64,000 nucleotides of DNA. Source: Planctomycetaceae bacterium (lineage in GTDB: Bacteria > Planctomycetota > Phycisphaerae > SM23-33). The notes beneath the pieces are model-generated. The model was not told the DNA's origin and ran no database searches. It saw only the letters and a program-made list of their open reading frames with translations. Where the stretch lies: assembly GCA_021371965.1 (NCBI GenBank), contig JAJFVE010000160.1:1-64000 (forward strand), given 5' to 3'. The position numbers were made by a program, and so were the translations under genes. How positions within the stretch are numbered: position 1 is the stretch's first letter; each line of letters begins with the position of its first letter. This document shows positions 3,377-7,653 of the stretch, piece after piece.

Positions 3377-3976
3377 TTACTCGAAGCGAATCCGGCAATG
3401 GGCTTGCTGCTGGAACGATGCCGCCGCCGCGTTGAGCTGGTCCACGATCTCCTGGCGGCTGGGCATGACCTGCCGGGCCAATTGAAGGGCATCGTTATGC
3501 AGCCGCTGCTCCATCCGACGCCGGTGTTCTTGGTCGTTGAACAGGTCCTGCATTCTGGCAACGCTTGTGGCCTTGGTAAGGCAATGAATATCCGGCCCTA
3601 CCGACATTGATATCACTCGCGGCTGAGGCAAACGAATGAACAGGGTATCGCCCTGGCGTCGAATATCCTGGTCGCCAATCGATTCCAGGTCGACACCGGC
3701 GCAGATCTCCACCTTCGCCCAAATGACGGCACGGCGATCGAAGAAGATATTCGTCTCCGAATCCTCGATTACGACCTGCGTCGATATCTCACGGGTGACC
3801 AGGCGCATGACCGGCTTGCTCTTGAGCACCGCCAATGTGACCTCGATGTCGGTGCGGGTCCCAAGAGTCGCCACTAGCGCCTGAAACTTGAATGCCGCCC
3901 ACAAGGCCAGGCCCCCCAATATCACCAGCAGAAGTGGGCGGACAGTTCTGGACAGGGATGATTCACTTTCGCTCAA
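3377..3976 (-). CDS. DUF4230-type membrane-anchored protein
   Basis: 199 residues. The TTG start at 3976 was chosen because GAGGAGGG stands 5 bases before it and directly follows the stop of the upstream small gene. One membrane segment lies at about residues 13-31 (RPLLLVILGGLALWAAFKF). It is followed by a beta-rich region with TREISTQVVIEDSETNIFF and a helical tail, as in DUF4230 proteins of unknown function. It is the last gene before the terminator. Its place in the operon suggests a membrane partner, substrate or effector of the ubiquitin-like system. This is inference from position only. Confidence 0.6.
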   Translation of the reverse strand: MSESESSLSRTVRPLLLVILGGLALWAAFKFQALVATLGTRTDIEVTLAVLKSKPVMRLVTREISTQVVIEDSETNIFFDRRAVIWAKVEICAGVDLESIGDQDIRRQGDTLFIRLPQPRVISMSVGPDIHCLTKATSVARMQDLFNDQEHRRRMEQRLHNDALQLARQVMPSRQEIVDQLNAAAASFQQQAHCRIRFE

Positions 3977-3987
3977 ACTTTCCCTCC

Positions 3988-4203
3988 TCAGCATCCGCAA
4001 AAACGAAGCAAAGCCAGAGCGGCCAGGATGGCTGCCACGATGAGCACAATTCGCATAATCAATATCTCCTTTTTCAGTGTCTGGATGGAAGGTATACGAC
4101 TGTTCTGGCGCCCTCGCCCCGTCAGTCTCCCGATGAAGCGGCAAACGCGCGGTCGCCACAGAATCCATTGCTTCAAGCGATAACCTCGTGGTGTCAGTGG
4201 CAT
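3988..4203 (-). CDS. small membrane protein, copy 1 of a duplicated family
   Basis: 71 residues. The N-terminal half is basic (MPLTPRGYRLKQW, then LWRPRVCR and RLTGRG). The C-terminal half is one hydrophobic helix ending in cysteines (ALLRFCGC). The ATG overlaps the last codons of the E1 gene by 10 bases, so translation is coupled. The first 45 residues closely match the small protein encoded at 7417-7653, at the other end of the operon. A second possible start (ATG at 4056-4054) has its own AAGGAG and would give only the 22-residue membrane helix. Function unknown. Confidence 0.6.
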   Translation of the reverse strand: MPLTPRGYRLKQWILWRPRVCRFIGRLTGRGRQNSRIPSIQTLKKEILIMRIVLIVAAILAALALLRFCGC

Positions 4204-4865
4204 GGGGCCTCCGTCATGGCGGTCATCTCGCTGGAAAGCAAATTGAGGGTCAGATCCGGGTCTGTTGGCAGTCCCCTCAGCCATCGGCTGAACTGGGAAA
4301 GCAGCAGCCCGGCCGCAATGTTGGCGGTAAAGATCGTCATCTTCGACGTACATGCGCCGGTGAAGGCCTCCTCCTGGGCGAACAGCGTCGTGGGATAGTG
4401 TCGGCGGCCCGCAGCATCGCCGGCGGTCAGAACGCGAATGACCTCGGCTGTCATCCGGCCGTCGCCAAAGAAGGTGGTGCGATCCTTGACGGCGTTCCAG
4501 ATCAGTTCCCGCGTGGAAATGGCATCCACCGCCGCAAAAACAACGTCACCCACAGCCATGCTTCGCCGGAAACGCTCCGGCGCGGCGTCTACAGTAATGC
4601 TGCTGTTGGTCAACTGGCAAAGCCGGGCGGTGGCGTTGACCTTGAGACTGCCCAGATCAATCTCGTGATAGCCCTGGCTGGCAAGGTTGCCATCTTCGAC
4701 AGTATCAAAATCAATCAACTGCAACTTCGGCGCCCCCATGGCCGCCAGCTGGATTGCCAGCTGGCGGCCCAGGGCGCCCACTCCGATGATCGTAATGCTC
4801 AGATTCTTGAGCCGCTGGGCGGGAACAATGTCCCGCTGGCGGCTGTAACGTTCATTCACATCCAT
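4194..4865 (-). CDS. ThiF/E1-like ubiquitin-activating enzyme
   Basis: 223 residues, starting at the ATG at 4865 (AAAGGA upstream; the next residues NERYSRQ are the usual opening of this family). It has a Rossmann nucleotide site GVGALG (28-33), the acidic pair in DFDTVEDGNL (52-60), Lys75 for adenylate contact, Asp114, and a C-terminal Cys172 in GACTSK that is the candidate thioester cysteine. There is no CxxC zinc ribbon. E1-like enzymes adenylate the C terminus of a ubiquitin-like protein and pass it to a cysteine. It stands in one operon with the Ubl, E2 and JAB genes, 65 bases after the JAB stop. It is shorter than eukaryotic E1s and close in size to MoeB/ThiF. Confidence 0.9.
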   Translation of the reverse strand: MDVNERYSRQRDIVPAQRLKNLSITIIGVGALGRQLAIQLAAMGAPKLQLIDFDTVEDGNLASQGYHEIDLGSLKVNATARLCQLTNSSITVDAAPERFRRSMAVGDVVFAAVDAISTRELIWNAVKDRTTFFGDGRMTAEVIRVLTAGDAAGRRHYPTTLFAQEEAFTGACTSKMTIFTANIAAGLLLSQFSRWLRGLPTDPDLTLNLLSSEMTAMTEAPCH

Positions 4866-4930
4866 TGGAACATGTTCCTTTCCTGCGGCCGGGTCTGCCG
4901 GCGGCATAGTGACAGCAGGCACCTGCATCT

Positions 4931-5662
4931 CTACACGTAGTCTCCTTCTTCCTGATCCCACAGATCTTCCCGCCCGCCCAGGTCGGCGAGGATGGCGTTG
5001 CGTTCGGCGGGATCGAGACTATCCAGTTGCTCCATCCAATCCGCGCCCATGCAAAGCCTATCCCACGCCGTCTCCTGGACTTTACTCTGCGGGAAGAACA
5101 GTTCCTTCTGGACGTGGACGTTCTGGTGGTATTCCTTCTTCCATGAATCATGGTCGGAGGGGCCAAAGGGCCTGCCGTAATCCACTTCCACCGGAATCTG
5201 GACGCTGCCACCAGGGCCGACGTTGAAGGCGAGCCTCGCATAGCTCTTGCCATCCCTGGCAACGATGGCCATGACAGCATGGTCGCAGCGGCCAAAGACT
5301 CTCTGGAAGCATTCCTCGTCCACGCTGCTGGGGCAGGGACTGTTGCCCGGATGAGTATGTATCCAAAGTCGCCCGAACTGGATGGGCCTTCGGCCCTGGT
5401 CGATCTGGCTGTCGAAGAAGTTGGCCACAGCCTGATCATCGAACTCGATACTGGCCATCGTCGCCTTCTGGCTGACCAGGACGATGTCCTGGATATACAG
5501 CAGGTCGTCGGCCGGCGTGATCCCAAAGCCCCCGATCTCCGTGTTGCCCGCATCCCGAAAGTACAGCAACTTGGCCCAGGCCGTTGGCGAAAAACGCAGT
5601 GCCTGGTCGTCAGGCTGCCTGGGAGGCTCGGGGGGGTTGATCTTTATCCTGGTTTGTTCCAT
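4931..5662 (-). CDS. JAMM/JAB metallo-isopeptidase
   Basis: 243 residues. The ATG at 5662 has AGGAG 8 bases upstream and lies 53 bases inside the end of the E2 gene. The JAMM zinc motif is complete: Glu42 in TEIGGF, His102 and His104 in WIHTHPG, then Ser112 and Asp115 in PSSVD. The metal-binding core spans about residues 22-165. The C-terminal 80 residues are helical, acidic and unrecognised. JAMM enzymes of the Rpn11 type cut isopeptide bonds or trim a ubiquitin-like protein tail. Here it would mature the Ubl or reverse conjugation. Confidence 0.9.
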   Translation of the reverse strand: MEQTRIKINPPEPPRQPDDQALRFSPTAWAKLLYFRDAGNTEIGGFGITPADDLLYIQDIVLVSQKATMASIEFDDQAVANFFDSQIDQGRRPIQFGRLWIHTHPGNSPCPSSVDEECFQRVFGRCDHAVMAIVARDGKSYARLAFNVGPGGSVQIPVEVDYGRPFGPSDHDSWKKEYHQNVHVQKELFFPQSKVQETAWDRLCMGADWMEQLDSLDPAERNAILADLGGREDLWDQEEGDYV

Positions 5663-6945: not shown

Positions 6946-7042
6946 GGGAAAATCCTTTCTGTAGGGGGAACGGGAGAAGGTTCAGCCGCCAGGGCGGCAC
7001 GTTGGGGAATCAATCAGGAGCAGTGCGACGTGACGGTCGCGG

Positions 7043-7261
7043 TTACGCCGCAGAGCGGGGAGGCGCCGCTGCGAGTGTCAAGGAGATGGCTCTATCGGCG
7101 GTCTGGTACAGGGAATCGACGCTTTCGCCGTGAACCGCCAGGCTGCGATTGACGGCCCCCAGTTCGTCTTCGCCGTCATGATCGACGGCATGGACAACAT
7201 TCTCGCCGAGCATCCACAGCTCTTGCCGTGTCAGCTTGGCTGCGGGCACAATACTGCTCAT
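7043..7261 (-). CDS. small hypothetical protein upstream of the Ubl gene
   Basis: 72 residues. Three ATG codons stand in a row (7267, 7264, 7261). The third is chosen because AAGGAG is 7 bases before it. The product is helical and acidic in the middle (TRQELWMLGENVVHAVDHDGEDELGAV), with an Ala/Pro tail. No family was recognised. It lies on the same strand as the Ubl gene, 97 bases upstream, and about 150 bases after one of the promoter-like repeats, so it is probably part of the operon. Confidence 0.5.
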   Translation of the reverse strand: MSSIVPAAKLTRQELWMLGENVVHAVDHDGEDELGAVNRSLAVHGESVDSLYQTADRAISLTLAAAPPRSAA

Positions 7262-7413
7262 CATCATGCTCCTTGTCCCAAGGGGGACGGTTTGGGTTGG
7301 AATTCGCGATTCCACCGTTGGCGCCATGTGGCCAACCGTGCCGGGGTACAGGCCGAGATAAGGCCAACAGGAGGCCTGATGAGAAGATGGGGGACAGCTA
7401 ATTCCTGCACATG

Positions 7414-7445
7414 TATTTATAACAAAACAAGGCCTAGAATTAAGC
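7414..7445 (-). promoter_or_regulatory. 32-bp promoter-like repeat, copy R1
   Basis: This is one of three 32-bp elements of identical length. Read on the minus strand it begins GCTTAAT and ends GTTATAAATA, so CTTAAT and TATAAA stand 17 bases apart like a -35/-10 pair. It overlaps the end of the small gene 7417-7653 and faces the gene starting at 7261. Confidence 0.5.
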
Positions 7446-7653
7446 AATTCTCACGAGCCAGAGCACAGCAATGACGGCCAGAATGGCCAAAACCCAGCGC
7501 CAGCCGAACAATTAGTACTTCCCTTCGCAACTGGTCAACTGAAGGCAGTCCGCCGGAGGACCTACGGCCAGTTAGCCGTTCAACCGTCCGACAAATGCGT
7601 GACCGCCAAAGCAACCACTGCTTCAGACGGTCGTCGCGGGGCGTCAGGGGCAT
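7417..7653 (-). CDS. small protein, copy 2 of the duplicated family
   Basis: 78 residues from the ATG at 7653, with AAGGAG 8 bases upstream. The first 45 residues (MPLTPRDDRLKQW, LWRSRICR, RLTGRR, then PSVDQLRREVLIV) match the small protein at 3988-4203. The C-terminal part differs: the other frame reads WVLAILAVIAVLWLVRIA and then stops, like the membrane helix of copy 1. A single-base slip after LIV therefore seems to have replaced the membrane helix with an unrelated tail. It lies 31 bases downstream of promoter-like repeat R2 and is probably the first gene of the operon. Confidence 0.5.
   Translation of the reverse strand: MPLTPRDDRLKQWLLWRSRICRTVERLTGRRSSGGLPSVDQLRREVLIVRLALGFGHSGRHCCALARENCLILGLVLL

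Follow-up and report, generated by a model that had tools for sequence, protein, structure and literature searches.

The locus described here raises the question of what a run of genes with the parts of a ubiquitin-type tagging system does in a planctomycete genome, and whether it belongs to the cell or to mobile elements. It lies on the minus strand at 3377-7653 of a 64,000-nt stretch of the Planctomycetaceae bacterium contig JAJFVE010000160.1 (positions 1 to 64,000, hereafter the window). The core cassette, 4194-6945, encodes in order a ubiquitin-like modifier (Ubl), a conjugating enzyme (E2), a JAB/JAMM peptidase and an activating enzyme (E1). Protein conjugation is suggested by this set of parts, and we consider it probable that the cassette is a set for attaching and removing the Ubl that is shared with contigs classed as viral. 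To our knowledge, few complete pathways of E1, E2, E3-like part, deubiquitinating enzyme and modifier from outside eukaryotes are available for experimental work, and the bacterial ones that have been tested act in immunity.

Gene families were called by a Pfam scan of the window proteins with the curated cut-offs applied. The genes are tightly packed, and those named in the initial annotation are where it placed them, apart from small corrections to the starts of JAB and of a DUF4230 gene. The Ubl gene (6715-6945) encodes a ThiS/MoaD-like protein of 76 residues with the C-terminus ...TPTKIEGADAAA. The 73 nt between it and the E2 gene hold a hairpin (6667-6705) with a perfect 17-bp stem, then TCCTCTTTT. 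The E2 (5610-6641) consists of a helical hairpin, a UBC domain and a RING-like array. The JAB/JAMM gene (4931-5662) is an open reading frame (ORF) open to 5689; its most likely start, judged from the sequence, is 5662, which gives a 53-nt overlap with the end of the E2 gene. Its product has a conserved Glu, then HTHPGNSPCPSSVD. The E1 (4194-4865) is a single ThiF/MoeB-type adenylation domain of 223 residues, and its stop is overlapped by the ATG of a 71-residue protein (3988-4203).

The same cassette is found on contigs that IMG/VR classes as viral. The first scan of that collection gave 3 loci, a scan with a JAB alignment gave 24, and two more gave 34 each; with one locus retained per contig, there are 54 distinct contigs. 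A scan of IMG/VR with the window JAB alone gave no relative. Loci L002-L004 share their contigs with L006, L009 and L012 and do not enter the counts, and L001 and L005 stand outside the viral counts. With family hidden Markov models (HMMs), the order Ubl-E2-JAB-E1 on one strand was found in 51/54 contigs, which reach 208 kb; L007, L008 and L043 are incomplete, their cassettes being cut at contig ends. Genes in this order need not be directly adjacent; no gap exceeds 600 nt in 45/54. The first HMMs gave the order in 21/24 contigs, the E2 of L023 being found only via a profile from the other loci. Thus the complete Ubl, E2, JAB and E1 set proposed for the window, with a RING-like part on its E2, is supported, and its order is conserved well outside the window. 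Terminase_6N is above its curated cut-off in 4/24 of the first contigs and 8/30 of the others (12/54), with two more below the cut-off; the contigs without a terminase are viral by the IMG/VR classification alone, and a missing match in a fragment says little. A tail sheath family appeared in 1/24 contigs, below cut-off. PHROG 2, which we take to be the large terminase, was tried as a phage marker and matched 9/24 contigs, but is not counted because 11/14 control genomes match it too. On L026 (3306-12441) the full cassette is accompanied by another group, JAB-E1-Ubl, and on L017 (3288-11921) a single run holds two Ubls and three E2s.

Residues were compared in an alignment of the first 24 contigs, from which two Ubl ORFs were omitted (the second of L008 and the first copy in L017). 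E2 residues H181, P182, C190 and G192 are invariant in 28/28 ORFs, one of which has a long insertion before the Cys; position 183 is H in 22, N in 4 and Y in 2. The E, H, H, S and D of the JAB are invariant (25/25), and so are G28, D52, K75, D114 and C172 of the E1 (24/24). Over all 54 contigs, a JAMM regular expression fits 54/55 JAB ORFs, and the expression HP...CxG fits 54/61 ORFs recovered by the E2 profile. An E2-like ORF is present in 53/54 contigs and one that fits the expression in 50 of these 53; of the three without a fit, L023 and L087 have by eye HP...C with a longer spacing, and L102 differs.

The Ubl is one bit below the curated cut-off of Pfam ThiS (E 3.4e-4), and in the PDB its profile matches SAMP2, ThiS and MoaD weakly (E 0.0085-0.06), ranked after designed proteins. 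There are 4164 homologous Ubl clusters, the window's own included, and several homologues bear the name ThiS or molybdopterin converting factor in their source records. In most of these proteins the end is Gly-Ala followed by a variable tail, rather than Gly-Gly. K-x-x-Gly-Ala occurs in 120/120 homologues among the matches listed, the window's included; 9 of the 120 end at Gly-Ala and 108 carry 1-6 more residues. Gly is kept in 23/24 and Ala in 20/24 of the aligned virus-classed Ubls, and of 57 Ubl-profile ORFs on the 54 contigs, 17 have an exact Gly-Ala end and 3 an exact Gly-Gly end. Tandem forms are represented by P0241 and, with inner K-x-x-G-A junctions, on contigs L055 and L056. By eye, Ubl ORFs of 221-245 residues on L049, L050, L055 and L056 are tandem poly-Ubls, the inner junctions of L049 not being K-x-x-G-A. 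L025 (8414-9028) and L028 (8353-9015) each encode a Ubl, K-G-A and then an extension of ~130 residues with YC-x-RMGC near its end, so that release of the Ubl would need the JAB.

The JAB protein matches Pfam Prok-JAB below the cut-off (E 0.0063), with all JAMM residues present, so that the full zinc motif claimed for it stands. A profile of its relatives matches an Rpn11-type protein (E 0.0031). The homologous JAB clusters number 3119, the window's own included, and one relative, P0196, is fused to ThiF. The E1 matches Pfam ThiF (PF00899, E 4.3e-20), and a profile of its relatives matches E1s in the PDB, including MccB, UBA5, MoeB, ThiF and BubCD; the adenylation fold expected at 4194-4865 is thereby upheld. 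It carries GVGALG, and C172, in GACTSK, is the predicted thioester residue. In PADLOC, JAB and E1 met only generic JAB and E1-E2 models, and Ubl and E2 met none.

No Pfam family was found for the window E2, save a chance-level B-box (E 0.81), and the Pfam Prok-E2 and Prok-RING models gave no match to it at E <= 1. A long helical hairpin at residues 9-93 is followed by the UBC domain with HPHVSDEILC, in which C190 is the predicted catalytic residue, and then by an array of repeated CxxC. A full-length AlphaFold2 (AF2) model was rejected as a PDB query, its matches being swamped by the helical hairpin, and for this reason the UBC part was modelled alone. AF2 models the core as a UBC fold (predicted local distance difference test, pLDDT, 95.6), and its best PDB matches are E2s, though weak, in agreement with the UBC fold put forward for 5610-6641. 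The array has weak matches to the p44 C4C4 RING and to B-box. Its first CxxC is kept in 27/28 virus-classed E2 relatives, L024 being without any CxxC. We predict that the array is RING-like and the E3 part of the set, and an E3 role for it is what we infer. Pfam found no family above cut-off in ten virus-classed E2s; two notable matches lie below it, UQ_con (E 0.14, L017, over the active site) and Prok-RING_1 (E 0.07, L026). The homologous E2 clusters number 403, the window's own included.

The hairpin in the window has a fold z of -5.2, and 0/200 shuffles were as stable. A strong hairpin lies no more than 93 nt from the Ubl stop in 35/49 virus-classed Ubl genes with E2 next, against 1/61 for E2, 4/54 for JAB, 9/55 for E1 and 27/1080 for random stretches. 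The hairpins are mostly unrelated in sequence between contigs. Thresholds were set on the first set (17/23, window included), and the contigs added later gave 19/26. Hairpins were tallied per Ubl gene, L008 thus entering twice, and those of L037/L038 and of L049/L050 are identical. The Fisher values for the excess, 3e-38 and 4e-19, overstate independence, since the contigs are related. By individual dinucleotide shuffles, 13/22 first-set hairpins, the window's included, have p <= 0.01. We predict that the hairpin is a partial terminator or attenuator; standing behind Ubl and rarely behind E2, it suggests a built-in surplus of Ubl.

The expectation that these genes occur together in other genomes is thus borne out on virus-classed contigs (51/54); on other contigs it is supported only indirectly, by coincidences of contig size. 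In this indirect test, the best 120 E2 and JAB relatives have 13 coinciding contig sizes of at least 3 kb against a mean of 0.17 when shifted; 119/120 Ubl contigs were entered. Among the few E2 and Ubl relatives for which an organism is named, all are from Planctomycetota, Phycisphaerae or Sedimentisphaerales. There was no match by tblastn in plasmids with the window JAB and E2, by tblastn in cultured phages with the window JAB and one virus-classed JAB, or in PHROGs with the window Ubl, E2 and JAB. One single-sequence scan of a genome collection gave one locus, with a partial E2 match and without Ubl, JAB or E1. In Chloroflexota the E2 profile matches 3/301 genomes, by the cysteine array only, and no Ubl, JAB or E1 was found in stretches of ~3 kb around the matches. 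The Chloroflexota loci L030-L034 encode proteins of 602-779 residues with a similar cysteine array, to which the E2-profile match is limited. Literature searches yielded no paper on phage-borne Ubl-E2-JAB-E1 cassettes among the matches listed, and the whole words JAB, ThiF and Ubl are absent from a jumbo-phage review (PMC7824862). The cassette belongs to mobile elements and, by the names of some relatives, to cells.

Three further genes of the run are putative members only: the 71-residue protein, in which a membrane helix can be made out by eye and which has no family match; the DUF4230 protein (3377-3976, minus; PF14014, E 1.7e-11), with a frame open to 4168 and, from the sequence, most likely a TTG start near 3976; and a 74-residue ORF upstream of Ubl (7043-7267, minus), without a match. 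The initial annotation had counted small genes and the DUF4230 gene into the system, and this is not supported, as a comparison with the flanking regions of 24 virus-classed loci gave no relatives of them. In those flanks, the most widespread ORF clusters resemble antisense ORFs of the core genes, followed by two ORF families, present in 7 and 6 loci, and none matched any flanking gene of the window. The ORFs at 3988-4203 and 7417-7653 are small paralogues flanking the operon (57% identity over 54 residues); the outer one keeps the start, has its end in another frame and looks broken. A 131-residue ORF at 2681-3076, without a family match, has a product ending in KEGAA, which recalls the Ubl end KIEGA and may be chance.

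A tRNA-Ser (CGA; 666-752, plus), a candidate attachment site, a tyrosine integrase gene (850-1785, minus; Phage_integrase, E 3.9e-25) and a gene for an HTH_17 excisionase-like protein (2024-2305, minus; HTH_17, E 4.3e-10) are all found to the same side of the operon. A direct-repeat search around the tRNA, to 20 kb, found no copy of it. Blastn across the window did find one: positions 735-754, at the 3' end of the tRNA, recur as a perfect 20-nt copy at 47187-47206 (plus), a candidate second attachment site. Between the tRNA and the copy are genes for a P-type ATPase, phosphoenolpyruvate carboxykinase, chorismate synthase, Sua5 and a peroxidase. Because several of these are of housekeeping type, we do not claim a single element of 46.5 kb, which is doubtful. 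The idea of a tRNA-borne island is partly confirmed, by the tRNA-Ser, the integrase, the excisionase-like gene and the 20-nt copy. A large serine recombinase ORF (45053-47401; Resolvase and Recombinase domains) lies at the copied tRNA end. At 8184-12672 there is an oxygen- and peroxide-stress group (rubrerythrin, rubredoxin-NAD reductase, redoxin, desulfoferrodoxin and nitroreductase), and at 38290-42890 there are two rhodanese-rich proteins, one with a sulfur-transport domain and the other with a metallo-beta-lactamase domain.

How might the cassette work? The JAB would trim the variable tail behind the Gly-Ala end and split poly-Ubl precursors, a step modelled on Caldiarchaeum, where, in the excerpt of PMC5654768 used here, the Rpn11 JAMM cuts off a nine-residue propeptide before E1 activation. 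The E1 would adenylate the Ubl end and may take the Ubl on Cys172, and Cys190 of the E2 would receive it, with the fused zinc array as a built-in E3-like platform. The JAB could later deconjugate the Ubl from targets. The terminator-like hairpin would stop some transcripts and leave the modifier in surplus over the enzymes. Because carriage is mobile, the role is most likely in conflict between mobile elements and their hosts or rivals, with host or phage proteins being tagged. An anti-phage role had been proposed from the integrase next door; it is weakened, since phages themselves carry the cassette, and a phage tool or inter-element weapon is at least as likely as host defence. A fuller reading, to which we give a little less than even chances, is that a self-contained tagging machine, in a class of its own, is common to tailed phages and integrative islands. 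Its E2 and its E3-like array would form a single protein, its Gly-Ala modifier would sometimes be made as a poly-Ubl, a transcription attenuator would cause the modifier to be overproduced, and phages would use the machine to mark host or rival proteins during infection. If so, ubiquitination-like control of proteins would be a standard phage weapon. The recurrence of this gene order on dozens of uncultured contigs classed as viral makes it likely that phages too own a complete tagging machine of the kind best known from eukaryotes. A compact set of four genes, whose Ubl and JAB have relatives in the thousands, whose E2 lacks a Pfam family and is fused to a RING-like array, and which phages carry, would be a tractable model for cooperation of E2 and E3. 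It could also help to show if a Gly-Ala end is open to activation and for what purpose phages would tag proteins.

Other readings of the locus have to be weighed against this. The operon could be a host anti-phage system of the Bil kind, the virus-classed copies being acquired genes or mis-binned cellular DNA. The integrase and excisionase-like neighbors fit such a system, as does a terminase above cut-off in only 12/54 contigs, and in the excerpts that we compared Bil and Bub operons figure among known or putative immune pathways. We regard it as unlikely because the active sites do not vary across numerous distinct virus-classed contigs, which reach 208 kb and in some cases carry a terminase, because PADLOC has no model for Ubl or E2, and because no CBASS or toxin family was found among the flanking genes scanned. 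It is far less likely that a ThiS-like protein delivers sulfur here, with E1 and JAB serving the synthesis of a cofactor or metabolite. The names of Ubl homologues, the ThiF-type E1 and the rhodanese-domain proteins at 38290-42890 agree with a sulfur carrier; the E2-like ORF in 53/54 contigs (50 of them with HP...CxG), a window cassette without a sulfur gene, the Gly-Ala end and carriage by phages do not. Least probable of all is that the window copy is a decaying remnant: the paralogue at 7417-7653 keeps its relative's start and not its end, as if frame-broken, but the four core genes are open with the family catalytic residues, and the hairpin is intact.

There remains the reading that only the location is new. 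Burroughs, Iyer and Aravind reportedly described RING-containing bacterial operons with Ubl, E1, E2 and JAB in 2011, and the window may hold one of these, which we judge improbable to the same degree as host defence. The points that weigh against our own reading can be put together here: a terminase is above cut-off in only 12/54 contigs; at least four T occur in the 9 bases after 20/35 hairpins and are absent after the other 15/35; the RING-containing operons occur in Actinobacteria, Planctomycetes and Acidobacteria according to the part of the review PMC4197634 compared here; and the excerpt of PMC7159879 (2020) has a bacterial class (FtsH-ternary) with JAB, E1, RING and a Ubl+E2 fusion. On the other side, the window E2 is missed by the Pfam Prok-E2 and Prok-RING models, and none of the excerpts compared has the E2 fused to an array, the Gly-Ala end, the hairpin or carriage by phages.

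How does the cassette stand to known systems, as described in the excerpts of the papers cited? The 2011 operons share with it the same four activities, a RING-type part and reported presence in Planctomycetes (PMC4197634, PMC7159879). The FtsH-ternary version has a separate RING gene and a Ubl fused to E2, whereas here the array stands behind the UBC domain and the Ubl is alone (PMC7159879). Type 6d of Iyer 2006 is alike in a stand-alone Ubl with a conserved C-terminal Gly and in separate JAB, E1 and E2; it adds a JAB-N domain and a helical protein, and its E2 has no upstream His and one downstream, whereas here HP[H/N/Y] precedes the Cys, with the His in 28/28 (PMC1779556). Bil (BilABCD) also has Ubl, E2, deubiquitinating enzyme and E1 in one four-gene operon. 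BilD, however, has inactive and active adenylation domains plus a Cys domain, unlike the single 223-residue domain of the window E1, and BilB has a CEHH motif with the His behind the Cys, unlike the window E2, which has no CEHH behind C190 (PMC11354881). His-Pro precedes the catalytic Cys in 28/28 virus-classed E2 relatives, again unlike BilB. The window E1 profile matches BubCD at E 2.3e-10, the matched chain having 458 residues against a separate E1 of 223 here. Iyer type 6b is CBASS type II (Cap2/Cap3). Its fused E2-E1 protein (a type 6b feature, PMC1779556) differs from the separate E2 and E1 genes of the window. Bub is a bacterial ubiquitination-like pathway (PMC13373217). Caldiarchaeum has a minimal complete set of Ub, E1, E2, RING and Rpn11 at one locus, with a separate small RING and a Gly-Gly end after removal of nine residues, where the window has a fused array and a Gly-Ala end (PMC5654768). 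The initial annotation's suggestion of a distinct type is therefore reasonable against Iyer types 6a-6e (PMC1779556) and Bil (PMC11354881), and it is less sure against the RING operons, which reportedly include Planctomycetes. Because these were reported in 2011, we do not call the cassette a new kind. What is new here is the cassette order on virus-classed contigs, the Gly-Ala end of the Ubl and the hairpin after the Ubl gene.

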